Below are positions 23,298 through 61,032 of a stretch of DNA of 64,000 nt, piece by piece. The position numbers and the translations under genes are program-made. Source of the stretch: an uncultured Rhodospirillaceae bacterium (GTDB lineage: Bacteria; Pseudomonadota; Alphaproteobacteria; UBA8366). Below the pieces are notes generated by a model, which was not told the origin of the DNA, ran no database searches, and was given only the letters and a program-made list of their open reading frames with translations. The DNA is taken from assembly GCA_913043025.1 (NCBI GenBank), contig CAJWLM010000011.1, positions 1-64,000 on the forward strand. The letters run 5' to 3'. How positions within the stretch are numbered: the stretch's first letter is position 1; each line of letters opens with the position of its first letter.

Positions 23298-23315
23298 ATA
23301 ATTTGTTTATATCCA

Positions 23316-23855
23316 CTATATTTTTATCTTTCTGGCTAATATTGGAATATTCCGTATCAACTGTTGAGCCATCTTGTTGGGTTTCTCGCGCAAATCTGCA
23401 TTGAAAACAAGGTCTGGCCTTACCGGAATATGCCACTCAATATCTACTCCAACAACGTTGCTTTCTTTGCCTTTTTTTGCAGCGGCGTAAAGCCCCTTAA
23501 CATCCTGCTCGATAATAAAATTTATAGAAGCATCGAGGTATACTTCATAATAATCATCGAAGTTTTCCCGATTCCATCGCAATAATTCTGGATTATTGTA
23601 GAGTACGCCGACGACTACAATACAACCTTGCCGTGACAAAAGCTGCGCCATGCTTTGGAGTCTTCTTACTTGAAGAATACGATCTTCCTCTTTGTATGAC
23701 AAATTATGTCCAAAAGCCTCGCGCACCTCATCACCGTCTAAAAGCACCAATGCCGGTAAATGAGGTTTTGCTAAGTCCCAAAATGCTTTGCATAAGGTAG
23801 TTTTACCTGCGCCGGACAACCCCGTTACCCAAATCACCATCTTAATTTTCCACAA
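23316..23855 (-). CDS. APS kinase-like protein, divergent
   Basis: This 179-residue P-loop protein (start possibly the second Met, at 23840) has VTGLSGAGKTTL, LLDGDEVREAFG, EEDRILQVRRLQSMA and PVRPDLVF, matching the CysC fold. The FISPY segment of normal APS kinases is replaced by VGVLYNN, and the DPKG lid is DVKGLY, so the substrate could differ. Such genes occur in capsule and LPS clusters, where a sugar or lipid phosphate kinase role has been suggested for some. Here it lies between a sulfatase-fold gene and an esterase on the minus strand. Confidence 0.75.
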   Translation of the reverse strand: MWKIKMVIWVTGLSGAGKTTLCKAFWDLAKPHLPALVLLDGDEVREAFGHNLSYKEEDRILQVRRLQSMAQLLSRQGCIVVVGVLYNNPELLRWNRENFDDYYEVYLDASINFIIEQDVKGLYAAAKKGKESNVVGVDIEWHIPVRPDLVFNADLREKPNKMAQQLIRNIPILARKIKI

Positions 23856-23877
23856 ATTGCATTAATTCAACGCTTTG

Positions 23878-25620
23878 TCATCTAGCAGACGCACAGGTAT
23901 TTGAATAAATTTGTTCTGGCTGGGAGTAACCTCGCATCGCTAGAATATCGGCTCTTTCTTTTTCCAAATATGATCTTAACTGAATGATTACGTCAGCATG
24001 CTTCGGATCTTTTGACAAGTCTAACAACTCATCTGGATCAGACCGTTTATCAAATAGACCCAATATTTTAAGCTGCGATCCGATAAGAACTAACATCATG
24101 CGATAGAGTTGTGTGGTAACTGTAAAATACAAATCGCGGTTTTCTAGGTCAGCATTCCCTGAACCTGCGCTTTCTGTAATTACAGCTTCGCATCCACCAT
24201 CAAAGGCCGATACCCCCCTGAAGCTTTTGTGAGCAGCTATGCCCAATGCGTCCAAATACGTGGCGGTTATTCCCATACTATCTATTAACCCAATGTTTTT
24301 TGGGATCGAATCGCAACCAGAGATAATAAGGGGAATATCTATATCTTCACAATGTGTTCGAAGCGCTACATTACCTCTTTTACGCGGGCTGCCCGCGTAA
24401 AAGTTTCCATGGTCACCGGTAATTACTATTACGGTGTCATCAAAGCGTCCTACACTACGCAAAGCACTAATTACCTTGCCAATTTCACGGTCAATCAACA
24501 TAAGAGCAGTGTCATAACTGGCTCGGCGCTTCGTTTTCCCTTTCAACCTTAGCCAAACCCATTTAGGCCACATGATTAAACGCTTGAAAATGTGTGACGG
24601 ACGGGACAAGGAACGACAATCATGCAGATCCATCAGGTGAAGGTGGACTGACCAAGGTCCGTCGTTTCTCGTAACAAAATCAGATAATGCGCCCATCACT
24701 TCATCAGCCTTAGTTTCGAATTGCGCCAAAAATAACAATGGAAAATTATATTTGGCAAAAAACTTCTCCGATCGCCATCGAACAGCCTCCAGCACCCTCC
24801 AGAACCAATAACCGAAACCTGGCTTCTTTAGTCCCAGATAACGCCAATATAATACGGGAGGAATGGTCATCATTTTTTCAATAACTGTGTCAGTCGAATG
24901 TTCAAAAAGATTAATTTCTGCACGACATCCAGCGGCTACCTTTTCGTTTATTTTTCTCAGTCTTGATGACCACGTAATGCCAGGACCATCTTCTGAAATG
25001 CTGGCCACTCTCCGCAACAAAAATACAAACTCATTTTTTAGCAGGCTAACTATCTCGCGTTTTGATAGATCTCCACTCTCCCATCTCTTCAATTCATACT
25101 GTAGGTTCCTGCCGATCAAGTGCGCAAGTATAACGCGCGAATCCATAGCGGTGTGCATATCAGAAAATCCACGATCATAACCATGCGTTATGCCAAGAAC
25201 GTTGCATGACGCCATCATCTGAGTTGAATAACCTGCATCACTCAACTGCTCAGCATAGCTACGGGGACGGTGCCTAATTCCATTATTATATCCACCGTGA
25301 TCAAGCGGATAGGTCAAACTAAATAGTGCCGGCAATACAAACTGTGTTGCCTGAGCGTTAGCTACAGCCCAAGTAACATCTCCTTTCTCTGCAACGTAGG
25401 CGAGATTGGGAGTGACTTTTCGAGTGTGTTCCAATTCTGATAGAACATCATAACGTAATCCATCTATAACAAGGAATATGCCGTTTTTTTGTTTTGCCTG
25501 TCTTTGGGCACGATCAAATTCCATAAAAGATTTTTTCATAAGGTCTGCTGCGCCTATTAATAATGACAAATGCCGATTGTTTTGAACAAATGCAGCATGA
25601 AGGCCATACAATGATAGCAT
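23878..25620 (-). CDS. Sulfatase-fold (alkaline phosphatase superfamily) enzyme with Thr nucleophile position
   Basis: The protein of up to 580 residues has the alkaline phosphatase superfamily layout: metal-binding Asp53 in VIDGLRYD, TPNLAYVA, and a late ITGDHGNF that binds the second metal pair. The place where sulfatases have CxPSR is Thr92 in ATQFVLPALF, 14 residues before TYP, so formylglycine cannot form; Thr nucleophiles are known in phosphoethanolamine and phosphoglycerol transferases. No membrane segment or signal peptide is evident. The start could also be a later Met (residue 28 or 33). It is the first gene of the minus-strand set with the APS kinase-like and esterase genes. Confidence 0.78.
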   Translation of the reverse strand: MLSLYGLHAAFVQNNRHLSLLIGAADLMKKSFMEFDRAQRQAKQKNGIFLVIDGLRYDVLSELEHTRKVTPNLAYVAEKGDVTWAVANAQATQFVLPALFSLTYPLDHGGYNNGIRHRPRSYAEQLSDAGYSTQMMASCNVLGITHGYDRGFSDMHTAMDSRVILAHLIGRNLQYELKRWESGDLSKREIVSLLKNEFVFLLRRVASISEDGPGITWSSRLRKINEKVAAGCRAEINLFEHSTDTVIEKMMTIPPVLYWRYLGLKKPGFGYWFWRVLEAVRWRSEKFFAKYNFPLLFLAQFETKADEVMGALSDFVTRNDGPWSVHLHLMDLHDCRSLSRPSHIFKRLIMWPKWVWLRLKGKTKRRASYDTALMLIDREIGKVISALRSVGRFDDTVIVITGDHGNFYAGSPRKRGNVALRTHCEDIDIPLIISGCDSIPKNIGLIDSMGITATYLDALGIAAHKSFRGVSAFDGGCEAVITESAGSGNADLENRDLYFTVTTQLYRMMLVLIGSQLKILGLFDKRSDPDELLDLSKDPKHADVIIQLRSYLEKERADILAMRGYSQPEQIYSNTCASAR

Positions 25621-30876: not shown

Positions 30877-30995
30877 TTTTACGCTAACACCTTTTTCAAT
30901 TGACTCTGCACCAAAAGCCTAATTTCGATACATTTCAAATATCAGAAGTACCACCAACAACGGCTTTAGCCAATCTGCTTATAATAATATATGAT

Positions 30996-33485
30996 ATGAC
31001 AAACAGCTCATTGAAGATTAGTACTCCTGCACCAACGCATAAAGATATTGTCACGGCGTTTCGAAAAGTATTACGCCCCACGGCAGGCCTTGTAGTAGTT
31101 CACAGCCAAATTGGCGCTTTCGGCAACATTGAAGATCCAGCTGCTACAATCTTAGAAGCATTGATTGAAGCTACTCCGAAAAAAGCCACAATAGCTATGC
31201 CCACCTTTACGTTTGATTTTCTATCTTCCGGTCGGTACGACCGAGAACATGACCAATCCGAAACAGGATTACTCACCGAATATTTCCGGTGCCAAGAATC
31301 AGTCCAGCGTTCCAAACACCCGATCTATTCGTATGCGTTTATGGGCCCAGAGGCAACCGCGTTGTCAGAAATAGGCGGTTCAAGCTGCTGGGGTAAGGAT
31401 ACTATTTTTTCTGTAATGGAAGAAAAAGACGCAGATATTATGATGCTCGGCAGTAGCTGGGAGAAATGCACGTTCTTCCACCACATCGAACAAATAGCCA
31501 ATGTTCCATATAGATATCCCAAAAAGTTTAACGGTATTGCAAATTTCGGGGCCGGCGAGACACCAGTGGAAACGCAGATGCAAGTAAGAAGGCTAGATAT
31601 GGCTGCGGACAACCTGTTTGATCCTATTGTCGAAGCCCTCAAAGACAAGAAACTAATTCGAACTTCGAACCTGGGGCGGGGTGTCGTTTCCGTTGCGAGT
31701 GCTCGTAATATATTCAATGTTGGTTCAAATTTGCTCAAGGAGGACTCTCTAGCCTTAATTGCAGACAGAGAAGCATATATAAATGCCAGAGACACCACCC
31801 GAGTTGCTCTTCTCTCATCAGCCAACCTTGATACTTTTGCCGACCAATTCGAAGCAGCTGCATCAGAGTGGTTAGGTAGAGCTTCCCGTATTTTTGTTCC
31901 ACCATTCGGGCAATATCGGCAAAATATTTATGGAAAAGATAGCGAATTATTTAGCTTCGATCCCGAATGGTTATTTTTTCTCGAACGCGCGGAAGATATT
32001 TTAGGGCCTGTATTATTTGAGCCATACGAGTACAAAGATATTGGCTCTTGGATTAATGACCTCGAAACTCGAGTTCAGTCGTACGCGAAGACCATTCGCT
32101 TGGCTCGAGAGGAATCGGGTGCAAAAATAATAGTCTTGAACTTTGCGTCGCCAGCTAATTCTTATCTCGGCCTATCAGACAGTACCCAGAAAATGGGCCA
32201 TAAAGAAGCAATCGAGCATGCCAATCGGGTTCTTACCAAGGAACTTTTAAAGGAAGAAATTTTTATTCTCGATTTCGAGGTGATAACTTCATCGTTTGGT
32301 AGCCACAATTTGTCTGATGATAAATTTTGGTATCTTGGCCGCATACCCTTCAGCCGCGACTTTGGTAATTTTCTCTCGCGACGCCTCTTAGGTACCATGC
32401 TAGCGCTAACTCAAAAAACAGCTCGACTGATCGTGACTGACCTAGACAATACACTTTGGCATGGAGTGATAGGTGAGGATGGGGTAGAAAATATAGGCAT
32501 AGGAACTGACTTCCCGGGAAATGCCTATCGTGATTTCCAGAAAACGCTAAAGGCACTGGCGAAGCGAGGCATTGCACTAGCAATCTGCAGCAAAAATACA
32601 GAAGTAAACGCGCTCGCTGCCTTTTCCAAACGGCCAGAGATGGTTCTGAATGAGGATGACTTCGCAGCAAAGCGTATCAATTGGACCGATAAAGCTAATA
32701 ATATTCGCAGCATAGCCGATGAAATGGCATTAGGACTTGGCTCAATATGCTTTCTAGACGATGATCCTCACGAACGTGCTTTAGTGCGGAAACAGTTGCC
32801 GGAAGTGTTTGTGCCTGAGCTACCTAACGACCCAGTAAACCGTCCCCGCGCTCTGCTAGAATTACCTTGTTTAGAATCACTGGAAGTAACACCGGAGGAC
32901 CTTCGACGTTCCCAACAATACAAATCTCGTGCTGCCATAGAGAGTGTTCGTCAAACAGCAGTGTCACTGGAAGATTTTTATTATGATTTAAAGATGTCGT
33001 TGTCTTTCGAACCGCTTAACAAAGCCAACCAAAACCGCGTTCTACAACTCATCGCAAAAACAAATCAATTCAATACAACCACCCGAAGGTATCAATCTTC
33101 TGATTTAAAAAAGCTCCGTGCTGCAGGTGCGGAGATCTTGGCAATTAGCCTACAAGATAAATTTAGTGAAGCGGAAATCATTGGAGTTATTATTTTAAAA
33201 TGGCAGGCTAAATATGCAATTATTGATTTGTTTTTACTGAGCTGCCGAGTTCTTGGCCGCACGGTAGAATGCGGCATACTTGGTTGGATAGCGAACCGGG
33301 CGCGAAAGCGAAGTATTCAGTTTTTAGAGGGCGAGATTATTGAGACGGAACGTAATCAGCCTGTTAGAAACGTATTTACAGACAATGGATTTTGCAAAGA
33401 AGATAATGGGAAATACAGTCTCGAACTAGCCAAGTCGTCGCTCACCATGCCAGCTTGGTTCACTATCAAAGGGATAATGAATTGA
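30996..33485 (+). CDS. Fusion of an AAC(3)-type N-acyltransferase with an FkbH-type HAD/acyl-loading domain
   Basis: The 829-residue protein joins two modules. Residues about 15-265 match the AAC(3) acetyltransferase fold, with RSKHPIYSY (His108) and FFHHIEQIANVPYR. Residues about 300-829 match FkbH: a first half with SSANLDTFADQF and VPPFGQY, the HAD phosphatase motif DLDNTLW (Asp482, Asp484), and a GNAT-like end. FkbH enzymes load a glyceryl group from 1,3-bisphosphoglycerate onto an acyl carrier protein. A fused N-acyltransferase suggests direct transfer to an amino sugar (inference). A TTG at 30900 would add 32 residues; TATAAT at 30980 may be its own promoter. Confidence 0.82.
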   Translation: MTNSSLKISTPAPTHKDIVTAFRKVLRPTAGLVVVHSQIGAFGNIEDPAATILEALIEATPKKATIAMPTFTFDFLSSGRYDREHDQSETGLLTEYFRCQESVQRSKHPIYSYAFMGPEATALSEIGGSSCWGKDTIFSVMEEKDADIMMLGSSWEKCTFFHHIEQIANVPYRYPKKFNGIANFGAGETPVETQMQVRRLDMAADNLFDPIVEALKDKKLIRTSNLGRGVVSVASARNIFNVGSNLLKEDSLALIADREAYINARDTTRVALLSSANLDTFADQFEAAASEWLGRASRIFVPPFGQYRQNIYGKDSELFSFDPEWLFFLERAEDILGPVLFEPYEYKDIGSWINDLETRVQSYAKTIRLAREESGAKIIVLNFASPANSYLGLSDSTQKMGHKEAIEHANRVLTKELLKEEIFILDFEVITSSFGSHNLSDDKFWYLGRIPFSRDFGNFLSRRLLGTMLALTQKTARLIVTDLDNTLWHGVIGEDGVENIGIGTDFPGNAYRDFQKTLKALAKRGIALAICSKNTEVNALAAFSKRPEMVLNEDDFAAKRINWTDKANNIRSIADEMALGLGSICFLDDDPHERALVRKQLPEVFVPELPNDPVNRPRALLELPCLESLEVTPEDLRRSQQYKSRAAIESVRQTAVSLEDFYYDLKMSLSFEPLNKANQNRVLQLIAKTNQFNTTTRRYQSSDLKKLRAAGAEILAISLQDKFSEAEIIGVIILKWQAKYAIIDLFLLSCRVLGRTVECGILGWIANRARKRSIQFLEGEIIETERNQPVRNVFTDNGFCKEDNGKYSLELAKSSLTMPAWFTIKGIMN

Positions 33486-33919
33486 GCAATAATGATACTC
33501 TTGCAGTCCGCGATCTAAGCATTGAGGAATTGTCGCCTGGGATGTTTGCCTCCTTCGATACTCTGCTCGGGCGCTCGAAAGTTGATGAGTTTGCTTCTCT
33601 CACTGGCGATGTATCCCCCATTCATGTTGACCCCGCCTACGGCGAGGGCTTGCCTTATGGCGGAAATATTGTTCATGGGATGCTGACTGCGGGACACTTT
33701 TCAACTTTGGTAGGTGTGCTGCTTCCGGGTCGTCGAGCCCTATTATCAAGTCTTTCGGTCGACTTTCAGGAACCAATCTCTGTAGGTTCCAAAGTCACAA
33801 TCACTTGCCGTATAGTAAGTATTAATGTAGGTGCCTCTACCTTGAATATGAATCTTGTAGCTTTACATGAAGGACTTATTTGCGCCCGCGGGCAGGCTAT
33901 CGTAAAAGTACGTCCATAA
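33482..33919 (+). CDS. MaoC-like (R)-specific hydratase, hot-dog fold
   Basis: The 145-residue protein has the hydratase-2 motif, an acidic and a His residue in TGDVSPIHVDPAYGE and IVHGMLTAG, as in (R)-specific enoyl-CoA or enoyl-ACP hydratases. The start is TTG at 33482, overlapping the stop of the preceding gene and preceded by AAAGGG 8 bases away. A hydratase for acyl-thioesters in a sugar locus fits with the nearby acyl carrier protein domain, and would act on a carrier-bound acyl chain (inference). Confidence 0.85.
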   Translation: MSNNDTLAVRDLSIEELSPGMFASFDTLLGRSKVDEFASLTGDVSPIHVDPAYGEGLPYGGNIVHGMLTAGHFSTLVGVLLPGRRALLSSLSVDFQEPISVGSKVTITCRIVSINVGASTLNMNLVALHEGLICARGQAIVKVRP

Positions 33920-33948
33920 ACTGGGCTCTGAACGCGCCGGAGAGATCT

Positions 33949-36093
33949 ATGAAACGTAAGCTCTTTTTTGCTGATCTTAATTATGTCAATCCTGACAAGG
34001 AATGGACAATAATCCCATTCCCTCTGAATATTGGGTTTATTGCGGCTTACACACAGAAAATGCTGCCGGATCTCTTCGAAATACAAATTTTCAAGGATCC
34101 GAGCTATTTCCTTCAAGCCATTAAAACTCAAAAACCGGATGTCGTCGCATTTTCGAATTATATTTGGAATAAAAATCTGACTATTGGGTTCGCAAAAGAG
34201 CTTAAGCGCCTACACCCTGACTGCGCAACAGTCATGGGTGGACCAAATTATAATTTCACCGAATTAGAGTGGCTTGACTCCTTTGTCCGAAAAGTGCCCG
34301 AAATCGATTTCCATATTGAGGGAGAGGGTGAGGTGAAGTTCTATAACCTTATGGCCTGTTTATCTGCTCATGATTTCGATTTAGCTGCAGCAAAAATAGC
34401 ATCGCCGGCTGGCACAGCTTTCTTATGTAATAATACCAATGAATTGATTGCGAATGTTACGCTCGATCAAGATGGCACATGGTCTCGCTTTGAAAATATT
34501 GATGTAGATTTGAAACGTGGGCGGCTCCTAGACTTAAATGATGTCCCTTCACCATATCTAACGGGTTTATTAGACGAGTTTCTAGCGGACACATCATATT
34601 GTCCTATCATCGAAACTAATCGCGGCTGTCCTTACACCTGTTCATTCTGTAATTGGGGCGCAATGGGAAAGTCAAAATCAGCAATGTTTAGCCAAGATAG
34701 GGTAATAGAAGAATTGCACTACATTGCTAATAACAATAAATCTATTACGCCTTACTTGTATGTAGGAGATGCCAATTTTGGCCTATTCCCTCGGGACGTT
34801 GAGATTGCGCAAGTACTTCGCGATCTAAAGGATAATACAGGGTTTCCGCAAAACGTTTATTTGTATTTTGCCAAAAACAGCTCTGAGAAAGTCGTACGCA
34901 TAGCCGAGATACTTAAAGATATGACGCCCATATCACTTTCACGTCAAACGCAAAATAAAACCGTTTTAGACAACATAAAGCGTTCAAACATCTCAATCGA
35001 TACATTCAATAGCCTTGCTGAGCTCGCCAAAAAGCTCGGGATTGACAGCAATGTTGAACTTATATTTGGTTTGCCTGGCGAATCAAAACAGAGTTTTCTC
35101 GATGGAGTTGAACAAATTGTGCATCAAAAAGTAGATGGGCTACACATCTTCCCTGCGATGTTATTAAATGGCTCAGATATGGGAACAAATGCAAGCCGAG
35201 AGCGTTATGGTTTAAAGGGGGAGTGGCGTTTGATTGATGGTTGTGCGGGCGAATATGGTCCCGTTCGCGCCATGGAATTTGAAGAAATTATAACTGAGTC
35301 GGCCGCCATATCGCGTGACGAGTATTTCGAATTGCGTCTATTCCATTTCTTACAAACACTCTTTCTAGACACAAAAATTTACAAAGATGTAGATGTGCTT
35401 TTGGGTAACCACAGCATTGTGGACTTGATAGTAAAGATTATCGATAAATTCCCAGAGGCGCCGAGGCCCTTTAGGCAACTCATGGAAGACTTTATCCAAC
35501 AGGCAAAGGGCGAATTTCACACAACACCTCCGGAAATTTTCAGCTCAGAAATGATTAAGGCTGCGCAACAGCAATCAGTTAAACTAAATCCATTATACAT
35601 CGCCAAATTATTGCACAGTGATGGGGTGCGCCCGGCATTTCATAATTTTCTCACCGATCTGATCTTGGTGTTAGGCGATTCTAACCACGATGAAATAGCT
35701 GGTGTGCTTGAATTTATTGATGCATCAATTTACCCGTTTGACGACCAAATGACCCGAGACGTTACGATGCATTTTGATGCGGCCGCTTTTGCACAAAGAC
35801 CTCACTATGAAAAAACCAATGTAAGCAAATACCTTCTCAAGAAGCCGAAACAATATCGATATGTGAAACCATTCACGTATGAGAAGTTCACTTCGCTTTA
35901 TAGTGGCCGCCAACATTCAGATAAAGTTTATGAGATCCTTGTTCACCATACCCATGAAACGTTTCGTCACACTCTATTGAGCCGCTTACAAGGCGAGTCC
36001 ACTGACCTGCCAAAATGGGTTCCGGAACCAGCCATAGCCAAACCACAAAATAGCGACCGCGTGATTCGTCTCGAAGGTGGCTGGCTCTATTAG
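33949..36093 (+). CDS. B12-binding-domain radical SAM protein
   Basis: This 714-residue protein (start ATG 33949 after GGAGAG) has an N-terminal cobalamin-binding-like domain of about 135 residues, in which no DxHxxG base-off motif is visible, and a radical SAM domain with the 4Fe-4S cysteines Cys227, Cys231 and Cys234 in NRGCPYTCSFC. A 350-residue C-terminal extension is helical and not recognised. Members of this class perform methylations and other radical steps at unreactive carbons. It lies in the unusual acyl/ACP segment, where a carbon branch or methyl group may be added; this is inference. Confidence 0.85.
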   Translation: MKRKLFFADLNYVNPDKEWTIIPFPLNIGFIAAYTQKMLPDLFEIQIFKDPSYFLQAIKTQKPDVVAFSNYIWNKNLTIGFAKELKRLHPDCATVMGGPNYNFTELEWLDSFVRKVPEIDFHIEGEGEVKFYNLMACLSAHDFDLAAAKIASPAGTAFLCNNTNELIANVTLDQDGTWSRFENIDVDLKRGRLLDLNDVPSPYLTGLLDEFLADTSYCPIIETNRGCPYTCSFCNWGAMGKSKSAMFSQDRVIEELHYIANNNKSITPYLYVGDANFGLFPRDVEIAQVLRDLKDNTGFPQNVYLYFAKNSSEKVVRIAEILKDMTPISLSRQTQNKTVLDNIKRSNISIDTFNSLAELAKKLGIDSNVELIFGLPGESKQSFLDGVEQIVHQKVDGLHIFPAMLLNGSDMGTNASRERYGLKGEWRLIDGCAGEYGPVRAMEFEEIITESAAISRDEYFELRLFHFLQTLFLDTKIYKDVDVLLGNHSIVDLIVKIIDKFPEAPRPFRQLMEDFIQQAKGEFHTTPPEIFSSEMIKAAQQQSVKLNPLYIAKLLHSDGVRPAFHNFLTDLILVLGDSNHDEIAGVLEFIDASIYPFDDQMTRDVTMHFDAAAFAQRPHYEKTNVSKYLLKKPKQYRYVKPFTYEKFTSLYSGRQHSDKVYEILVHHTHETFRHTLLSRLQGESTDLPKWVPEPAIAKPQNSDRVIRLEGGWLY

Positions 36094-36132
36094 GCTCAAA
36101 AGGCCTTCAATGGCATCAACTTTGTATCACAA

Positions 36133-37185
36133 ATGAATTCATTTACTGCCACAAATATTCGGACTGGCACCGCGGCCGACCTGAAAACCGCTCTCGTGAC
36201 TGGTTCAACTGGCTTGCTCGGTCATGCAGTATGTTGTGCACTTCGTGATGACGGATGGCGAATAGCTCTTAGTGGCCGCAATGAAGTTGCACTAAAGAAG
36301 CTTGCCCGCACACTTGGAGACGATGCGATTCCACTGCCCTGTGATCTGTCTCTTCCAGAAGCTGGTGCCAGTCTAGCCCACGATGCAAGTGAAGCAATGG
36401 GTGCGCCCCATCTTTTTATACATTTGGCCTCACTCCCGGTGAAGCCTGTTAATTTCTTAGAGTCTGCCTCAGACCTAGACCAACAAATTGCGGTCAATGC
36501 AAAAGCATTCGTTCAAATTTCGGCAGCATTACTACCTGAGATGTTAAGAACTCAGACGGGAGTTATCATAAGCATGCTTAGTAAAGCTATGTTGCCACCT
36601 ACTCCCCCTGGTTGGCAAGCCTATACAATTGCAAAGGCAGCGCAGGCGCAAGCTGCGGCAGAAATCACAGCACGATATAGCGAGGCCGGAATTCGTGTGT
36701 TCGGTATTATCCCTGGTATAATTGCCGGTGAAACAGGTTTGCCCGGGGCTGCGCCAATATCAGATGTCGAAAAATTAGGAACGCCTATTCCAGCCACGAG
36801 GATAGCAGATACAATAATAGACCTTATCAACAATGATACATCTCCAACTGCTACAGCCATTTCGATAAATGAAAACGCTGAGACAACAGGTTTCCTGGGA
36901 TTTTCATTCAACCAAGAAGCAGTTCCCGAACTGGTAATGCCCCAAAGCGATACCTTAAATATCCGACTAGCTAAAATAATTCAGACCGTCTTAAAATTAC
37001 CCAAAGAAACAGAGTTAACCAACGCCGAGCTCGGGGTATTATCTGGCTGGGACTCACTTGGCCATATTAAACTAATAATGGAGATTGAGTCCCAATTTAA
37101 CATTGTATTCAATACTGAAGAGTCCACAAATCTTACCTCTTTCTCAAGTATACGGGATGCACTGGCACGCCGCGGCATCACATAG
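36133..37185 (+). CDS. Short-chain dehydrogenase fused to an acyl carrier protein domain
   Basis: Residues 15-250 form an SDR domain: TGSTGLLGHAVC for the cofactor, and a catalytic region with SMLSKAMLPP and YTIAKAAQA. From about residue 270 the chain becomes an acyl carrier protein, with GWDSLGHIKL holding the phosphopantetheine site Ser308. An SDR and its carrier in one chain imply that the reductase acts on an acyl group bound to the same protein. With the FkbH-type protein, the hydratase and the AAC(3)-type acyltransferase it forms a small carrier-based acyl path. The order SDR-ACP is seen directly; the acyl group is not known. Confidence 0.85.
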   Translation: MNSFTATNIRTGTAADLKTALVTGSTGLLGHAVCCALRDDGWRIALSGRNEVALKKLARTLGDDAIPLPCDLSLPEAGASLAHDASEAMGAPHLFIHLASLPVKPVNFLESASDLDQQIAVNAKAFVQISAALLPEMLRTQTGVIISMLSKAMLPPTPPGWQAYTIAKAAQAQAAAEITARYSEAGIRVFGIIPGIIAGETGLPGAAPISDVEKLGTPIPATRIADTIIDLINNDTSPTATAISINENAETTGFLGFSFNQEAVPELVMPQSDTLNIRLAKIIQTVLKLPKETELTNAELGVLSGWDSLGHIKLIMEIESQFNIVFNTEESTNLTSFSSIRDALARRGIT

Positions 37186-37191
37186 ACAAGT

Positions 37192-38565
37192 ATGGAAAAC
37201 ACCACCCCCAAATCAAATTTTCTAAGTCCGGAAGATCTGCAAACGCTACTATGCAAAAACCGTAATCAAGAAAATCTTACAAAAGAAATAGCAAACTTTT
37301 TTGATCGCTTATTTCCAATTATGCGAAGCATCACAGGAGATGGCGTCCGCGAAACAATCAAAATCCTCTCTGAGTTGCAACAGCTAGAGTGCCAGGAGAC
37401 TGCTTCAGGCACACAGGTGTTCGACTGGACAGTGCCGAAAGAATGGGTCTTCAAAGAAGCATATATAAAGGGGCCTGATGGCAGCAAGCTACTTGATGTC
37501 AAGAACCATACGTTACACTTACTTAACTATTCTGCACCATTTCAAGGAACCTTAAGCCGGAGTGATTTGGACAAACATTTGTATAGTTTGCCCGAACAGC
37601 CTGACGCCATCCCATATGTTACTAGTTATTATGATGAGAGATGGGGTTTTTGTCTGCCCCACAAACAGCGCATGGCGATGCCAGATGGAGACTACCAAAT
37701 TCTGATAGACACTGAGTTTGTTGACGGTGCGCTAACAATTGGGGAATGTGTGTTACCCGGTGAGAGTAACGATGAAGTTTTGATTTCTACAAATATCTGT
37801 CATCCCTCACTTGCTAACAATGAACTTTCGGGCCCACTCGTTACAGCATTTTTGGCGAGATTAGTCGCAAGTTGGCCTAACCGTAGACTTACTTATAGAT
37901 TTGTGTTTTTACCAGAGACTATTGGCAGTCTAGTTTATTTAGCACATCTTGGAGATCACCTAAAATCTCATGTAGTTGCAGGATATCAAATTGTTTGTGT
38001 TGGCACCGACCATCCCTACCTTTTAAAAACGTCCCGCCAAGAACAAACCCTTGCCGACCGAGCGGCCAAAACAGCACTCAAACAACTACTCGATGGTGAT
38101 TTCGAAGTACGGGAATTCAGAGCAGATTGGGGGAGTGACGAGCGACAATATTGCTCTCCAGGCTTTAATCTGCCGATAGCTTCCATATTGCGGTCAATTT
38201 ACGATGAATATCCCGAATATCACACCTCGCTGGATAATCGTTCTTTTATATCTTTTTCATCAATGGCAGAAACAATTCAAACCTGTGCTTTCATATTACA
38301 GCATCTTGATAATAACAGAACGTACATCAGCCAGGTTCAGCACGGCGAAGTTCAACTTGGTCGGCGCGGCCTTTATCCAACCCTCGGAAATTATCAAGAA
38401 AACCTTGATCAAGTCTCCGCAATGCTGTGGTTAATGAATTTATCTGATGGAGGCAATGACCTTATTTCAGTGGCTGAACGAAGCGGCTGTGACATTCGAC
38501 TACTCCACCATTTTGCGAAAGTATTCTGTGAGATGGGCTTACTGAAGGAAAAAAATGATGGTTAA
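37192..38565 (+). CDS. DUF4910/DUF2172-type aminopeptidase-like protein
   Basis: The 457-residue protein matches the M28-like peptidase fold found in many polysaccharide loci. A zinc-ligand segment CHPSLANNELSGP lies near residues 200-212, and the C-terminus has a winged-helix-like end of about 80 residues. Whether these proteins cut peptides or amide bonds on sugars is not known. It starts 6 bases after the SDR-ACP gene and overlaps the next gene, placing it firmly in the acyl segment. One idea is that it removes an acyl or aminoacyl group from an amino sugar (inference). Confidence 0.75.
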   Translation: MENTTPKSNFLSPEDLQTLLCKNRNQENLTKEIANFFDRLFPIMRSITGDGVRETIKILSELQQLECQETASGTQVFDWTVPKEWVFKEAYIKGPDGSKLLDVKNHTLHLLNYSAPFQGTLSRSDLDKHLYSLPEQPDAIPYVTSYYDERWGFCLPHKQRMAMPDGDYQILIDTEFVDGALTIGECVLPGESNDEVLISTNICHPSLANNELSGPLVTAFLARLVASWPNRRLTYRFVFLPETIGSLVYLAHLGDHLKSHVVAGYQIVCVGTDHPYLLKTSRQEQTLADRAAKTALKQLLDGDFEVREFRADWGSDERQYCSPGFNLPIASILRSIYDEYPEYHTSLDNRSFISFSSMAETIQTCAFILQHLDNNRTYISQVQHGEVQLGRRGLYPTLGNYQENLDQVSAMLWLMNLSDGGNDLISVAERSGCDIRLLHHFAKVFCEMGLLKEKNDG

Positions 38566-39562
38566 AAAATCCATCCCGGTACCTGATGCAAAGCCCGATG
38601 ACCTTATTTGTGCCTGTAAAGGCTTAAGGCTCAAAGATTATCACAAGGAACTTCAAGAGAATCCCGAGCTCTCGTTTGAAGACGTACTCAATAAAACTGG
38701 AGCCGGCAGCAGCTGCACCGCGTGTCTCCTTGACTTAGAATACTTCTACGTCAGTTTGCCTCGCGAAAAAAATGCACCCAATAAAGCTGCTAAAGCAAGC
38801 ATGGCCGACGAGCGTTCATTAAAGCGAAAAATATTCGATTTTATAGATAGAATATCTCCTTCCGTGCCTTACAAGTTAGCCAATCGGTTTCCTATAATAT
38901 CGGGCGCCGGAATAGACCAACATATTTGGGTGTCGAATCGCAGCTTACTTTTTGAGGGCGATCGCTGTGGGCCCTCCTTTGATGTGGATTTTACCGCGCG
39001 TGATGCTGCCGGCAATATATGCCACCGGCAGCGGTTGAAAGTTGAACCGGAAGCTGCTTTAGATTTTATGGTTTCAAAATTTATCGCTCCTCCACAAAGC
39101 GATAGCGAACTTTCCGTCGGTTCGGTTGAAGTCATACGGCGCGGTAAAAAACAGGGTTTCCGTGGCACAACACGGCCCCAAACTGAGATACTGGCTCGTG
39201 ATGGGACTTGCTCGGTACATGGCCAAAGTTACAAATATCCAGGAGAAAGATGGTTCTCTCTTACTCACGTTCCCAATGACCAGAGAGTATTTCTATCATT
39301 CATAAACTTTGCTGCAACCGAAAATGAAGTGACAATCGAATACCCAATGAATGTGGAAGATCTTCAGTTGAGAAAAAGGCATTTTGTTACCAAAATACCG
39401 GGCAACGGTGCCCACATTCATGAAGTACAAGTAACAAACTCAGAGGCAGCAGCTTTGGCGGGTCGTCACTTAGCAATAAAATGGACTGCAAGTACTGAAT
39501 ATAATTGTCACATATTCTGTGCAAGCCCCGACTTAGGCCGATTTTCTATAGACCATTCTTAG
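38555..39562 (+). CDS. Protein with BFD-type [2Fe-2S] domain and an unrecognised beta-rich domain
   Basis: The 335-residue protein begins with a [2Fe-2S] domain of the BFD/NifU-middle type: Cys19 and Cys21 in CAC, then Cys54 and Cys57 in TGAGSSCTAC. The remaining 240 residues are rich in predicted beta strands and match nothing I know. The overlap with the upstream stop is 11 bases. A small iron-sulfur module could pass electrons to the PhyH oxygenase or the radical SAM protein in the same locus (inference). The function as a whole is unknown. Confidence 0.7.
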   Translation: MMVKKSIPVPDAKPDDLICACKGLRLKDYHKELQENPELSFEDVLNKTGAGSSCTACLLDLEYFYVSLPREKNAPNKAAKASMADERSLKRKIFDFIDRISPSVPYKLANRFPIISGAGIDQHIWVSNRSLLFEGDRCGPSFDVDFTARDAAGNICHRQRLKVEPEAALDFMVSKFIAPPQSDSELSVGSVEVIRRGKKQGFRGTTRPQTEILARDGTCSVHGQSYKYPGERWFSLTHVPNDQRVFLSFINFAATENEVTIEYPMNVEDLQLRKRHFVTKIPGNGAHIHEVQVTNSEAAALAGRHLAIKWTASTEYNCHIFCASPDLGRFSIDHS

Positions 39563-43428: not shown

Positions 43429-44652
43429 ATGCTTTTCTGTACCAATTGCGTAATGCCTGACTCTCGCCCAGATCTTGATTTTGATGAAAACGGGATCTGC
43501 GATGCCTGCCGCGCAAGTCAGCGCAAGTATGGCAAACACGTTGAATCTATTGACTGGGATGACCGGCGAGAACAATTTGAAAAGTTGATAGAGAGCTGCC
43601 GCAGCAATGACACTATGAAGTATGACTGCCTGATTGGCGTTTCTGGTGGGAAGGACTCAACGTATCAGGTTTATGTAGCAAAAGAAGTGTTTGGTCTCAA
43701 TCCATTATGCCTATGCATAGAACCCACCCTGCCCACACCGATCGGCCGAGAAAATCTATCAAATATTAGCCGTATGGGGGTCGATCTAATCCACTTTAAG
43801 CAAAACCCAGTAGTCTATGAAAAACTTATCCTTGAGGGCTTTCGTCGGGTTGGTGATCCAGAGTGGGCCAATCATATGGCAATTTGGTCGTTACCCTTCC
43901 GGATGGCAGTTGCCCATGACGTGCCACTTATCCTGTGGGGCGAATCACCGCAAATGGAATATGGTGGCTTTCACAGGGTTCAAGAGAAGAATATGCGCGA
44001 GATGGACGAAGATTGGCTTAACGACTTCGGCTGCCTCAACGGCCTTCGGCCGGAAGACTTGGTGGGTGGGGAGCTTGGCATAACACTCGAGGATATGAAA
44101 CCCTATCGCATGCCATCTAAGGAGCGGTTGCGTAAGGTAGGTGGAAACAGAGGTTGTGTAGCCGCATTTATCGGATACTTTTTAGAGTGGAACGTACCTA
44201 AGAATCTTGAGATCATTGAGGCACGTGGATGGCAGAGGAGGATTGGACGTAACGAGATCACCTATACGGACTATGAGGGCCTTGACTGTTATTCAATGCA
44301 AATCCACGACTATCTAAAATTTTGCAAATTCGGTTATGGCCGTGCCACCGACGATGCCTGCCGCGATATTCGCGATGGAGGCGCTACCCGCGAACAAGGC
44401 GTACGCCTGGCGGCCCGCTACGACGGAGGCTACCCGAAAGAATTGATTGAACGATTCTGCAATCACTTCCATTTGACACAGCAGGAATTTGACGAAATTT
44501 GCGACAGTTTCACCAATCCGGCAATATTCGAAATGAAAGATGGCAGTTTTCTAAGGGATATAGATGGCAGTCTTGTTATGCGGCAAGAAATCCATGCAGC
44601 CCGCGACAACCCTTGGGTAGGATGGGGGACGACGCGACCAGGATCCGAATAA
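43429..44652 (+). CDS. N-acetyl sugar amidotransferase, WbpG/PseA type
   Basis: The 407-residue protein has a metal-binding-like N-terminus with Cys4, Cys7, Cys24 and Cys27, then the PP-loop ATP motif SGGKDS at residues 72-77. Enzymes of this family convert an N-acetyl group of a sugar to an acetamidino group using ammonia, as in WbpG of Pseudomonas and the PseA family of Campylobacter. It is followed directly by hisH and hisF, its usual glutaminase and ammonia-channel partners, so the trio makes an amidino-sugar. Confidence 0.9.
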   Translation: MLFCTNCVMPDSRPDLDFDENGICDACRASQRKYGKHVESIDWDDRREQFEKLIESCRSNDTMKYDCLIGVSGGKDSTYQVYVAKEVFGLNPLCLCIEPTLPTPIGRENLSNISRMGVDLIHFKQNPVVYEKLILEGFRRVGDPEWANHMAIWSLPFRMAVAHDVPLILWGESPQMEYGGFHRVQEKNMREMDEDWLNDFGCLNGLRPEDLVGGELGITLEDMKPYRMPSKERLRKVGGNRGCVAAFIGYFLEWNVPKNLEIIEARGWQRRIGRNEITYTDYEGLDCYSMQIHDYLKFCKFGYGRATDDACRDIRDGGATREQGVRLAARYDGGYPKELIERFCNHFHLTQQEFDEICDSFTNPAIFEMKDGSFLRDIDGSLVMRQEIHAARDNPWVGWGTTRPGSE

Positions 44653-44656
44653 ACTC

Positions 44657-45316: not shown

Positions 45317-45321
45317 TTCCG

Positions 45322-51593: not shown

Positions 51594-55672
<4,079 letters not shown>

Positions 55673-56430: not shown

Positions 56431-57065
56431 GTAACGGTCAAAAACAGCTTAATGCGTGGAGCGGCACTTTTGGAGAGAAGTACGTCGAACGTAATAATGT
56501 AACACTCGAAGTGATTGAAAAACGCCGCTACGCGTTCAATCATATTTTTGAGCACATTGAAGATAGTGACGCTCCGGGGTCAATTCTCGAAGCCGGCTGT
56601 AACATAGGTATCAATATACACGCACTTTCTCAGATAACTGATGCAGCACTCCATGTGGTCGAACCTAACCAAACAGCACTCAACGTCCTTTTAGAATCGG
56701 GCGTTGTGCCCGCTTCCCAGGCCCACCAGGGTAGCTTGCAAGCACTTCCCCTGAAGGACTCAGAAATTGATTTAGTTTTCACCTCAGGAGTTCTGATCCA
56801 TATTCCAGATGATGTATTAGAAATTGCCCTCTCAGAGATTCACCGGGTAAGCAGAAAGTATATATTAGCTTTGGAATACTTTTCCCCTGACCCGCATACT
56901 GTTCCATACCATGGCCACACCGACTTTTTATTTAAGCGGGATTACGGCAGCCTATTTTTAGATACTTTTTCTGATATCGAGCACGTCGCGAATGGATTCT
57001 TCTGGAGGAGAACAACAGGACTGGACAATCTCAATTGGTGGCTTTTCCGCAAAAAAATTAATTAG
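56427..57065 (+). CDS. Pseudaminic-acid-associated SAM methyltransferase
   Basis: This 212-residue protein resembles the methylases that accompany pseudaminic acid genes: the WSGTFGEKYVERN start, the SAM loop LEAGCNIGINIHAL, the SGVLIHIPDD segment and YHGHTDFLFKRDYG near the end. Such enzymes are thought to methylate a sugar or its acyl group, but the target is not settled. It overlaps the cytidylyltransferase gene and ends one base before pseG. Confidence 0.85.
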   Translation: MSNGQKQLNAWSGTFGEKYVERNNVTLEVIEKRRYAFNHIFEHIEDSDAPGSILEAGCNIGINIHALSQITDAALHVVEPNQTALNVLLESGVVPASQAHQGSLQALPLKDSEIDLVFTSGVLIHIPDDVLEIALSEIHRVSRKYILALEYFSPDPHTVPYHGHTDFLFKRDYGSLFLDTFSDIEHVANGFFWRRTTGLDNLNWWLFRKKIN

Positions 57066-57066
57066 G

Positions 57067-58569
57067 ATGGCCAAAACACGTTTAGCCCTATTTAGGTGCG
57101 ATGCCGATCAAAATATTGGCATGGGACACCTCATGCGTTGTCAGGCGATAGCAATAGGGCTGAAAGCGCAAAACTGGCAAACCACTATTGCTTCATCAAA
57201 AGCTACATTTGACTTAATTCCCTCTCTAAACGAAAAATTTAATCACTGCGTGGTTGTGCCCGAATCAGACCTTTCAGCTTGTAATCTCGATGAGTTAATT
57301 ATTGGTGAATATGACCTTTGCGTAATCGATCATTACAAAATATCCGCCAATTACGAGAGGCTGTGTCGACGTTGGGCAAAAAAAATAGTTGTCTTAGATG
57401 ACCTAGCCAATAGAGAGCATGATTGTGATATTCTCGTTGATACATCGTTCGGACGGAATGCATCAGATTATGCAGGCTTGATGCCTAGCCATACTAAGGC
57501 CCTTTTCGGACCTTCTTATGCACCCTTGGACACAAATTTTTGGAAGCTAAGGCACACCATTGAAAGAAGACTAAAGTCAAAGCCAGTAAAACGAATTTTA
57601 ATAAGCTTTGGCGGTGCCGATACTGGGCAACTCACGGAAACAGCAGTTAAGGCAGTAAACGCCACGAAGACCAATATATCCTTGGATGTTGTCGTGCCAG
57701 CTGATTTCCGAAATTCTGCTGATATAGAGGAGCTTTGTCGAGTGGCCGCACAGGATTGTTCGGTACACAAAGGTACTGACCAAATGTCTGCACTTATGGC
57801 CCAAACGGATATTTCTATTGGTGCAGCGGGCGTCACTGCCTGGGAACGGTGTTCTTTAGGGGTACCAAGCATTGTAGTGGTTGCTTTTGACAATCAGAAG
57901 TTTATAGCAAAAGCGTTAGAAGATAACTCAGCCGCATTGGTGGTAAACGAAGGCTCAGGTGACAGGACGGACGCCATAACAGAAGCTCTAAACATGCTTA
58001 TTGCAAATCACGAGTTAAGGTTAAAAATGACAAAATCCGCCGCAAGCCTTTGCGATGGACTGGGAACGAATAGAATCATAAGCGAAATATATGAGGCTCC
58101 AAAGACTAATGATGGTAAATGTGTTTCGATCCGAAGGGCTACGGAAGCGGACTTACTATCGACATTTAATTGGCAGTCAGACCCTCGGACCAGAAAATAT
58201 TTTACCAACCCGAATATCCCTGACTTCAAAGAACATCAGGCATGGTTCACGCAATCGCTAAGAAATCCCAATCGAATTCTTACAATAGTCGAACTTGAGG
58301 GGCAGCCATCAGGTGTGTTGCGTTTCGATAGAAAAAAGGTGCCGACTAGCACACAAGAGTCTTGGTACGTGTCCATTTACATAGATCTAGACGTTGCATC
58401 GATGGGATTGGGATCAGCAGCTCTTAAACTGGGGCGACGCTTGTTGCCAAACGCAATATTAATTGCAGAAGTTCTCGATGAAAATATCGCATCACGCAAG
58501 GTATTTGAGAAAAATGGATATATTTCCGACAAAGGAACTTACGTCAGCAATCCGGAACAAATTGAATGA
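57067..58569 (+). CDS. pseG: Fusion of UDP-sugar hydrolase PseG with N-acetyltransferase PseH
   Basis: The 500-residue protein (ATG 57067) joins two steps. Residues 1 to about 340 match PseG, which removes UDP from the diacetamido sugar, with RCDADQNIGMGHLMRC and SFGGADTGQL. Residues about 350-500 match PseH-type GNAT enzymes, with VSIRRATEADLLSTFNW, TRKYFTNPN and the acetyl-CoA loop GLGSAAL. PseH acts before PseG in the path, so fusion could channel the intermediate. The domain order is seen directly in the sequence. Confidence 0.9.
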   Translation: MAKTRLALFRCDADQNIGMGHLMRCQAIAIGLKAQNWQTTIASSKATFDLIPSLNEKFNHCVVVPESDLSACNLDELIIGEYDLCVIDHYKISANYERLCRRWAKKIVVLDDLANREHDCDILVDTSFGRNASDYAGLMPSHTKALFGPSYAPLDTNFWKLRHTIERRLKSKPVKRILISFGGADTGQLTETAVKAVNATKTNISLDVVVPADFRNSADIEELCRVAAQDCSVHKGTDQMSALMAQTDISIGAAGVTAWERCSLGVPSIVVVAFDNQKFIAKALEDNSAALVVNEGSGDRTDAITEALNMLIANHELRLKMTKSAASLCDGLGTNRIISEIYEAPKTNDGKCVSIRRATEADLLSTFNWQSDPRTRKYFTNPNIPDFKEHQAWFTQSLRNPNRILTIVELEGQPSGVLRFDRKKVPTSTQESWYVSIYIDLDVASMGLGSAALKLGRRLLPNAILIAEVLDENIASRKVFEKNGYISDKGTYVSNPEQIE

Positions 58570-59261
58570 ACAATCAATATATTGTCGCTACTGTCAAACC
58601 GTGGAATATCAGCGCCTATAATAAATATGTCCCAAGACTTAACGGACAATGGCATTTGGTGACTGAACCGTTGCTCCTCAGGAGCGAACTTCTTAATGAT
58701 CTAAAGCCACGGTTTATTTTTTTTCCACATTGGTCATGGCGAATAAGTGATGATGTGCTTAAGCAAAACGAATGTGTGTGTTTTCACATGACTGATCTGC
58801 CCTATGGGCGCGGAGGCAGCCCCCTTCAAAACCTTATCGTACGTGGTAAAAAATCAACGAAAATTAGCGCCTTACGTATGGTGCCAGAGCTGGATGCTGG
58901 ACCAATTTATATGAAAAGAGATCTTCCTCTAGATGGAAGTGCGCAGGAAATTTATACCCGTGCGGCAGATATAATATTTGAAATGATAAAAGATATTGTG
59001 GAAATTACGCCAACGCCCAAAGAGCAAACTGGGCCTATAACGCACTTTGATCGACGAAAGCCAAAAGATAGTGAATTACCTTATCGCGGTGACTTAGACA
59101 TGCTTTATGACCATATTCGGATGCTTGATGCTGAAACTTACCCACCCGCATTCATAACACACGGGGATTACTTAATAAATTTTTCAGAAGTTAGCCTAGA
59201 GAATGACACGCTAAGTTCCCGTGTTATTATTTCGCGAAAGCCTAAAAAAATACCAATTTAA
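58566..59261 (+). CDS. Formyltransferase-fold protein of nonulosonate loci
   Basis: The 231-residue protein resembles the N-terminal domain of methionyl-tRNA formyltransferase: FFPHWSWRI, then FHMTDLPYGRGGSP, which corresponds to the NxH...RG part of the active site, and the late Asp in MVPELDAGPIYMK. It probably transfers a formyl group from 10-formyltetrahydrofolate to an amino group of a sugar, and formyl forms of pseudaminic acid are known. It sits between pseGH and a deacetylase, with a 4-base overlap upstream. Confidence 0.8.
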   Translation: MNNQYIVATVKPWNISAYNKYVPRLNGQWHLVTEPLLLRSELLNDLKPRFIFFPHWSWRISDDVLKQNECVCFHMTDLPYGRGGSPLQNLIVRGKKSTKISALRMVPELDAGPIYMKRDLPLDGSAQEIYTRAADIIFEMIKDIVEITPTPKEQTGPITHFDRRKPKDSELPYRGDLDMLYDHIRMLDAETYPPAFITHGDYLINFSEVSLENDTLSSRVIISRKPKKIPI

Positions 59262-59277
59262 AAGATCGAAAATTAGA

Positions 59278-59955
59278 ATGACTAAACGTATCTTAGTAGT
59301 TGCTGCTCATCCCGATGATGAAGTTCTGGGATGCGGAGCCACACTTGCCAAACACTCCATGGACGGAGATGAAGTCCACATTTTATTTTTAACAGATGGA
59401 GTGTCTGCACGAGAAAGCACCAATATAAAAAATGATCGAGATGTCCGACGCAGACATGCTAAAAATGCAGCCTCTATACTCGGTATAAAATCTATCGACG
59501 GATTAGCTCTTCCGGATAATGGGTTAGATAAAGTAGCCTTGCTTGATATTATTCGGCCAATCGAGAGCAAGATTATTAAGTGTAAACCGGATATTATATA
59601 TACCCATCATTTCGGAGACCTAAATGTTGATCACTGTCAGGCTTACTATGCAGTTTTAACTGCTTGCCGCCCGGTCCCGGGCTTTTCGGTATCAGAAATT
59701 CTTGCCTTTGAAACACTATCGAGCACCGAATGGGCTGGGATTGAACAAAATAAGGCTTTTATACCCAATAAATTTATCAATATCAGCGCGACGCTGGATA
59801 CAAAATGTGAAGCAATGGAAGCCTACAAGCATGAATTACATGCGTTTCCACATCCTCGTTCATTAAAGGCTATCCGTGCACTGGCAAGTTTACGAGGCAC
59901 AAGTGTGGGGTTAAAGGCAGCCGAGGCATTCACAGTTATCCGGCAAATCTTGTAA
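59278..59955 (+). CDS. PIG-L/LmbE family N-deacetylase
   Basis: The 225-residue protein has the metal motif AHPDDE at residues 10-15, the LFLTDGVSAR strand and a late THHFGDLNVDH, as in LmbE/PIG-L zinc deacetylases that remove acetyl from GlcNAc-type amino sugars. I start at ATG 59278; the frame is open upstream through the end of the formyltransferase gene. Next to a formyltransferase it may free an amino group that then receives another acyl group (inference). Confidence 0.88.
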   Translation: MTKRILVVAAHPDDEVLGCGATLAKHSMDGDEVHILFLTDGVSARESTNIKNDRDVRRRHAKNAASILGIKSIDGLALPDNGLDKVALLDIIRPIESKIIKCKPDIIYTHHFGDLNVDHCQAYYAVLTACRPVPGFSVSEILAFETLSSTEWAGIEQNKAFIPNKFINISATLDTKCEAMEAYKHELHAFPHPRSLKAIRALASLRGTSVGLKAAEAFTVIRQIL

Positions 59956-59976: not shown

Positions 59977-61032
59977 ATGACAAAAAGGTTAGAGATACTA
60001 GGAAAAGAGATATCAGAAAGTGAACGGCCCTTCGTCATTGCCGAAATTTCTGGAAATCATAATGGGGACATCGAGAGAGCGTATGCAATTATCGACGCAG
60101 CAGCAGAAGCCGGTGCAGATGCCGTAAAACTACAAACCTATACCCCCGAAACCATGACACTAGATTGTGATCGACCCGACTTTCAAATTAAAGGCGGGCT
60201 GTGGAACGGATATTCTCTATTTGATCTCTACGAATGGGCCCATACCCCATGGGATTGGCACGAAGGACTTTTCGAGCGAGGTCGTAAGCTTGGTGTTCCT
60301 GTCTTCTCAACACCTTTTGATCCGTCTTCCATTGCTTTTTTAGAAAGTTTAAACACTCCCGTTTATAAAATCGCTAGTTTTGAATTGATTGACCTTCCAT
60401 TCGTTAGGAAGGTTGCACAGACGGGTAAACCAATGATTTTATCGACAGGTATGGCGAATATTTCTGAGATAGAAGAAGCAATCTCGGTAGCTAAATCTGT
60501 TGGGAATGAGAATTTAATAGTTATGCACTGTGTAAGTGGCTACCCAGCCCCAGCTAGCGACTATAATTTAGCTACCATACCAGATCTCGCCGATCGTTTA
60601 GGTTTGCTGATTGGGCTCTCAGATCACACACTTGGGATTGCTGTTCCCATAGCCGCAGTGGCCAAAGGAGCAGTAATTATAGAGAAGCACATAACTCTGC
60701 GGCGTGAAGACGGTGGGCCAGATTCAGCGTTTTCCCTGGAACCAGATGAATTCAAATTGATGGTTGAAGGTGTGCAGGTAGCATGGAAGGCGCTCGGAAA
60801 ACCAGATTACCAACGAAAAAAAAGCGAAACAGATAACGTCATATTTCGTCGATCGCTCTACGTGATAAAGGATATTCCTAAGGGACATCCACTTAACGAA
60901 AATAATGTGCGGTCAATCCGACCGGGTCACGGAATTGCTCCAAAACATCTGCCCGATGTTCTAGGGCGCGTAGCCCGTCGCACTCTCATACGCGGTGAAG
61001 CGCTCACGTGGGATATGCTGGGGAGCGAGTGA
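59977..61032 (+). CDS. pseI: Pseudaminic acid synthase
   Basis: PseI condenses 2,4-diacetamido-2,4,6-trideoxy-L-altrose with phosphoenolpyruvate. The 351-residue protein has IAEISGNHNGDIERA, typical of PseI, AVKLQTYTPETMT, LSDHTLG and EKHITL for metal and PEP, and a C-terminal SAF domain (RRSLYVIKDIPKG from about residue 290). It ends the pse set and is 1 base before the asparagine-synthase-like gene. Compared with the NeuB-like synthase at 47790 it has the PseI-specific QTYTP wording. Confidence 0.93.
   Translation: MTKRLEILGKEISESERPFVIAEISGNHNGDIERAYAIIDAAAEAGADAVKLQTYTPETMTLDCDRPDFQIKGGLWNGYSLFDLYEWAHTPWDWHEGLFERGRKLGVPVFSTPFDPSSIAFLESLNTPVYKIASFELIDLPFVRKVAQTGKPMILSTGMANISEIEEAISVAKSVGNENLIVMHCVSGYPAPASDYNLATIPDLADRLGLLIGLSDHTLGIAVPIAAVAKGAVIIEKHITLRREDGGPDSAFSLEPDEFKLMVEGVQVAWKALGKPDYQRKKSETDNVIFRRSLYVIKDIPKGHPLNENNVRSIRPGHGIAPKHLPDVLGRVARRTLIRGEALTWDMLGSE

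Follow-up and report, generated by a model that had tools for sequence, protein, structure and literature searches.

What does a set of genes for carrier-bound acyl chemistry do in a nonulosonate glycan locus? This question is raised by five tightly packed genes, all on one strand, in a stretch of 64,000 nucleotides from an uncultured Rhodospirillaceae bacterium (contig CAJWLM010000011.1, positions 1 to 64,000; hereafter the window). The row encodes an AAC(3)-like N-acyltransferase fused to FkbH, a MaoC-like hydratase/dehydratase, a B12-dependent radical SAM protein, a short-chain dehydrogenase/reductase (SDR) with a C-terminal acyl carrier protein (ACP) domain, and a DUF4910 protein. A preliminary description of the window had named the first four of these genes, all of which are indeed present with almost no spacing (gaps of -31, +29 and +39 bases, in order, followed by +6 bases to the DUF4910 gene). 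It had proposed that they build a glyceryl-derived group on the ACP, modify it and move it to an amino sugar. Judging from sequence, we consider it probable that these genes form a cassette for carrier-protein acyl chemistry, in which a lactoyl-type group is built and then attached to an amine of a nonulosonate precursor of the pseudaminic type. An N-acyl route that is carrier-bound and loaded by FkbH is, as such, highly likely, and lactoyl is the product that we favor on balance.

A set peculiar to one genome can be rejected because it recurs in others. AAC(3)-FkbH, MaoC, SDR and ACP occur together in ten loci (eight of them with DUF4910 as well): the window, a sister genome (G002), a genome from another family of the same order (G019), plasmids of Maritalea myrionectae, Sinorhizobium sp. 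RAC02, Erwinia rhapontici and Rahnella sikkimica, and three Magnetococcia (G147, G091, and G171). The neighborhood is thus conserved in Alphaproteobacteria, Magnetococcales, and Enterobacterales, and the refutation that the preliminary description foresaw for a row confined to this genome does not occur. Since the set recurs in eight loci besides the sister genome, chance is excluded and the gene row is confirmed as real. The sister genome has the whole row, with protein identities of 85-95%. In G019, the AAC(3)-FkbH gene is followed by a gene for a 492-residue MaoC-SDR-ACP protein and then by DUF4910, with PseB nearby. The same three-gene order lies between PseB and a NeuB-type synthase in Maritalea, and with PseB, PseC, PseI, and a cytidylyltransferase in Sinorhizobium. 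In the three Magnetococcia, these three genes recur with DUF4910 placed first, and in Erwinia and Rahnella the AAC(3)-FkbH, MaoC, SDR, and ACP set is part of a non-glycan cluster without DUF4910. MaoC, SDR, and ACP form a single polypeptide in seven of the ten loci (G019, Maritalea, Sinorhizobium, Erwinia, and the three Magnetococcia), which argues for a shared, tethered substrate; the Rahnella annotation has separate genes for the MaoC and SDR parts. The split MaoC and SDR-ACP genes of the window correspond to these fused proteins, since each scores best in its own genome against the fused profile (135.9 bits for SDR-ACP versus 67.8 for the next match, and 64.5 versus 50.5 bits among MaoC proteins). 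A search of viral contigs with SDR-ACP as query gave no match.

The catalytic features expected of each component can be read directly from the proteins. The first matches Antibiotic_NAT (1.5e-34, 120 bits for a cut-off of 25), TIGR01686 FkbH (272.3 bits, cut-off 146.65), and HAD-IIIC. All ten aligned AAC(3)-FkbH fusions retain residues H162, E165, and E89 of AAC(3), the HAD motif DLDNT, TNQFN, and Cys750 in the SCR motif of FkbH; the residue following DLDNT is Leu or Met. With these HAD motifs and the conserved cysteine intact, the glyceryl origin suggested in the preliminary description is supported, as are its carrier-protein acyl path, its view of AAC(3) as an N-acyltransferase, and its nonulosonate setting. 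The AAC(3) domain appears to be a relative of aminoglycoside resistance enzymes that is not itself filed as one; indeed, a drug-resistance identity was rejected (59 bits versus curated NCBIfam equivalog cut-offs of 270-420). The MaoC protein (Pfam MaoC 8.7e-14, 51.6 bits, cut-off 27) has the motif GDVSPIHVD, matching the GDxxPxHxD of MaoC hydratase 2, and its nearest solved structure is an (R)-specific enoyl-CoA hydratase (1iq6). This motif is intact in the window, the sister genome, G019, Maritalea, and G147, differs at one flanking residue with Asp and His retained in Sinorhizobium, Erwinia, and G091, and is degenerate in G171, the sole aligned locus without the Asp/His pair. The SDR (adh_short 1.4e-25) contains YTIAK, and no aligned protein has lost YxxxK or the ACP serine. 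Scanned alone, the ACP domain scores 21.6 bits against PP-binding, narrowly over the Pfam cut-off of 20.8, and its WDS motif does not vary among ten sequences.

From these domains and their linkage, we infer the following sequence of reactions. FkbH would load the glyceryl group of 1,3-bisphosphoglycerate onto the pantetheine arm of the C-terminal ACP of the SDR, and MaoC would dehydrate glyceryl-ACP to 2-hydroxyacryloyl/pyruvoyl-ACP, whose keto group the SDR could then reduce to give lactoyl-ACP, probably the (R) form. Methylation of the acyl chain, once or repeatedly, may follow in this genome, catalyzed by the B12 radical SAM protein. AAC(3), tethered to FkbH, would finally pass the acyl group to a free sugar amine, possibly after deacetylation by PIG-L, and DUF4910 would act on the sugar side. 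There is a precedent for the central steps. According to a passage in a review (PMC4765723, citing He 2014), the biosynthesis of FR901464 and lankacidin involves DH-KR proteins that turn glyceryl-S-ACP into lactyl-S-ACP, one bifunctional protein carrying out both dehydration and ketoreduction, much as MaoC, SDR, and ACP are fused at most of our loci. The likeness is one of architecture and gene linkage: the lactyl group described in that passage starts a polyketide, whereas here AAC(3) is proposed to hand it over to an amine. By analogy, MaoC, SDR, and ACP beside FkbH, without a ketosynthase, would fit glyceryl-to-lactyl chemistry, and the fusion of MaoC to SDR-ACP at most loci, in line with the reported DH-KR logic, makes such editing the most likely role for the pair. 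The preliminary description was right about the carrier route and the glyceryl origin, but left the modification vague and missed both the lactoyl step and the conservation of the set.

The predicted product exists in nature. N-(R)-lactoyl pseudaminic acid, Pse5(R-Lac)7Ac, has been proven to occur in Psychrobacter marincola, in a report that describes no biosynthetic genes for it (PMC7281560); it is only because of this sugar that we prefer (R). Amide-linked lactyl groups have been termed rare (PMC9912281). FkbH-type genes have also been seen in glycan loci, i.e. cj1302 in a flagellar/nonulosonate locus of Campylobacter (PMC7099621), and CA_C2195-2199 of Clostridium acetobutylicum, where DUF4910, an ACP, and an acetyltransferase-HAD protein are encoded in a nonulosonate/flagellar locus (PMC4000134). 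In neither case is a MaoC/SDR pair or an AAC(3)-FkbH fusion named, or acyl chemistry proposed. In the literature searched, we found no paper with both FkbH and MaoC, and no reported biosynthesis of N-lactoyl sugars, N-(R)-lactoyl pseudaminic acid included. FkbH and ACP genes in glycan loci, as well as lactyl chemistry, were known separately, but their union with AAC(3) for nonulosonate N-acylation is new as far as we could find.

How general this chemistry might be is suggested by a set of 40 FkbH loci, 39 of which had flanks long enough to be judged. A clear MaoC match comes with an SDR in 11 of 11 cases, an SDR alone is seen in two loci, and neither in 26 (Fisher 5e-8, for loci that are not independent). 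G001, G005, and G009, which belong to the same family as the window, have in a row a Wzy_C-like protein (scored in G009), MaoC, SDR, FkbH, ACP, an MBOAT acyltransferase, and a 326-residue protein, and FkbH-ACP-MBOAT with MaoC/SDR is found in polysaccharide loci of these three genomes and of G010 and G026. FkbH, ACP, and MBOAT lie beside Wzy_C without MaoC and SDR in G004, and at six Magnetococcia loci separate genes encode AAC(3), FkbH, and ACP, again without MaoC and SDR. On a Subdoligranulum plasmid (Bacillota; L092 5785-9200), open frames that are unannotated in the record give FkbH, ACP, MaoC, SDR, and a GNAT-like protein one after another. These patterns of presence and absence argue for a core of FkbH and ACP, for MaoC plus SDR as an optional unit editing the load of FkbH, and for a transferase that varies. 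If so, the acyl group could be predicted from gene content wherever the four-part module (FkbH, ACP, MaoC, and SDR) meets AAC(3), MBOAT, or another transferase: lactoyl with MaoC/SDR, and glyceroyl without. N-lactoyl and N-glyceroyl amides decorate pseudaminic acid and other amino sugars, and the module offers a candidate route to them that would connect polyketide starter chemistry with surface glycans. Two side observations concern the same genes. The MaoC-SDR-FkbH-ACP-MBOAT row at L034 1566-8596 is likely an O-lactoylation set for a polysaccharide, and a MaoC match in Cetobacterium belongs to a butyrate-type pathway, MaoC and SDR by themselves not being diagnostic.

Could the cassette instead move an unmodified glyceryl group, close to what the preliminary description supposed, with MaoC and SDR serving another step or acting weakly? 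N-glyceroyl pseudaminic acid is known in Tannerella, where the acyl gene was termed "elusive" (PMC6120980), and the six Magnetococcia loci with a separate AAC(3) show that FkbH and ACP can do without MaoC/SDR. Plain glyceroyl transfer requires neither enzyme, however, and at FkbH loci clear MaoC matches are always accompanied by SDR; both are fused to the ACP itself and retain their catalytic residues save for the one degenerate MaoC, so that we regard an N-glyceroyl product as unlikely. The same two enzymes might process an ordinary C4 chain supplied to the ACP by fatty acid synthesis, giving 3-hydroxybutanoyl from crotonyl-ACP or acetoacetyl-ACP. Such amides are the most abundant sugar decoration of this kind (PMC10609480), the solved structure nearest to MaoC is the (R)-specific enoyl-CoA hydratase, and MaoC plus SDR also serve the Cetobacterium pathway mentioned above. 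This origin is nonetheless quite unlikely, as neither a ketosynthase nor a ligase is seen in the set, and all AAC(3)-type sets have the transferase fused to FkbH, in keeping with a C3 glycerate origin.

The FkbG-K extender route begins with FkbH, and the SDR could in principle oxidize glyceryl-ACP to a hydroxymalonyl-type unit as in that route. The second dehydrogenase of the route is not seen, MaoC has no role in it, and there is no polyketide synthase gene among the annotated genes, making this the least probable explanation, and a very remote one. That the cassette makes a free amide metabolite, its position in glycan loci being incidental, is also very improbable. It is prompted by the Erwinia and Rahnella plasmids, where the set sits with genes for a nucleotidyltransferase-aminotransferase, a CDP-alcohol transferase, ATP-grasp, and MFS proteins. 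One enterobacterial plasmid region (L068 7483-18475) joins the acyl set to these genes and to a HAD gene in a small-molecule cluster. (On another plasmid, pERA55, the annotation of the homologous region, L074, is split into numerous small fragments.) On the other hand, the set accompanies PseB, nonulosonate genes, and DUF4910 in the window, G019, Maritalea, and Sinorhizobium. Transfer of a lactoyl-type group to a pseudaminic-type precursor has to be weighed against several observations. As the Enterobacterales loci are not glycan loci, the acceptor cannot always be a sugar, and the three Magnetococcia cassette contigs have no Pse gene near the cassette. In the window itself, a second nonulosonate pathway and a formyltransferase make the acceptor uncertain. 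Lastly, 369 genomes sampled from another class, with only four candidates scored in each, gave no fused MaoC-SDR-ACP, which counts weakly against our interpretation.

The features discussed are listed in Table 1. The preliminary description had set the range of the row at 30900-37185. The AAC(3)-FkbH gene starts at ATG 30996 rather than 30900, since the sister genome has stops upstream of that point, and the cassette extends beyond this range to DUF4910 (37192-38565). ATG 33949 is a probable start of the radical SAM gene.

Table 1. Genes of the proposed acyl cassette and of the pseudaminic acid pathway in the window
Feature	Position	Strand	Remarks
AAC(3)-like N-acyltransferase fused to FkbH (FkbH N domain, HAD-IIIC, C-terminal FkbH region)	30996..33485	+	829 aa
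MaoC-like hydratase/dehydratase	33455..33919	+	TTG as listed, start codon uncertain
B12-dependent radical SAM, TokK/CysS-like C-methyltransferase, optional member	33949..36093	+	Open frame from 33880
SDR ketoreductase with C-terminal acyl carrier protein domain	36133..37185	+	ACP serine in GWDSLGHI
DUF4910/DUF2172/HTH_47 metallopeptidase-like protein	37192..38565	+	Constant partner of glycan-type cassette
PseB and PseC, start of pseudaminic acid pathway	53439..55672	+	PseB 516 bits, PseC 435 bits, both over cut-off
PseG with C-terminal PseH-like region	56992..58569	+	TIGR03590 247.6 bits, over cut-off; weak TIGR03585 stretch below cut-off
PIG-L family N-deacetylase	59221..59955	+	PIG-L 3.6e-28
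PseI, pseudaminic acid synthase	59977..61032	+	483.5 bits, over cut-off

Which sugar would receive the acyl group? The PseB/PseC pathway of the window is the likely source of the acceptor, and in the window, G019, Maritalea, and Sinorhizobium PseB belongs to the cassette locus or lies close to it. Since the N-acetyl group of UDP-GlcNAc gives rise to position 5 of pseudaminic acid, a lactoyl group there would need a de-N-acetylase. PIG-L is a candidate to free the amine for re-acylation, and a relative with 36% identity lies in the G019 cassette locus beside a PseG-like gene; this is suggestive only, given the formyltransferase that adjoins the PIG-L deacetylase in the Pse cluster of the window (58566-59955). 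The presence of both genes suggests further N-acyl variants. In addition, WbuX, HisH, and HisF-like amidotransferase genes lie beside a LegC-like aminotransferase (43429-47201), so that an acetamidino nonulosonate is probably another product and two nonulosonate pathways are combined in the locus. A second AAC(3)-domain protein (48830-50524), with ∼310 N-terminal residues that have no Pfam match, is encoded in this amidino/LegC pathway.

DUF4910 seems to go with the sugar, since all eight glycan-type loci contain it, whereas the Erwinia and Rahnella clusters and the mapped MBOAT rows do not. Identity to the window protein is 44-47% in Maritalea, Sinorhizobium, and the three Magnetococcia, and 38% in G019; a structure is available (3k9t). 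The family, which lacks the usual peptidase residues, has been reported in carbohydrate operons and was earlier proposed to modify sugar derivatives (PMC4000134).

The radical SAM protein, which the preliminary description had counted as part of the gene set, is an associated yet optional extra to the cassette. Although the row does contain it, an intact gene beside the cassette is found only in the window and the sister genome, and it is absent or decayed at most loci. A shortened remnant just upstream of the cassette in G147 (L070 3-360), consisting of ∼80 N-terminal residues followed by the C-terminal end in another frame, is either decayed or misassembled. Relatives with 47-48% identity are found in Magnetococcales, and in G091 an intact one (48%) is on a separate contig, adjoining a gene for a free-standing ACP. 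The window protein has unmistakable B12-binding and radical SAM domains, and its cluster motif is RGCPYTCSFCNW. Its PDB relatives are TokK (1.6e-50) and CysS (1.2e-45), which C-methylate an unactivated carbon on pantetheine- or carrier-bound substrates; the aligned portion covers only about half of the window protein. Membership of the KedN5 family was rejected (NF033712, 207.9 bits versus a cut-off of 700). We tentatively suggest, at rather less than even chance, that in this genome the radical SAM protein methylates carrier-bound lactoyl before transfer, yielding a new N-acyl nonulosonate such as N-(2-hydroxybutanoyl) or one with a branched hydroxyacyl group. A surface sugar would then bear an acyl chain lengthened carbon by carbon on a dedicated carrier protein.

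Two neighboring regions complete the picture of the window. Overlapping the end of the DUF4910 gene, and kept in the sister genome, is a gene (38555-39562) for a protein with a BFD/NifU-like [2Fe-2S] N terminus and an uncharacterized part of 270 residues. Upstream of the cassette, APS kinase and sulfatase genes (21475-25620) point to sulfated glycans that are made or used by the organism.

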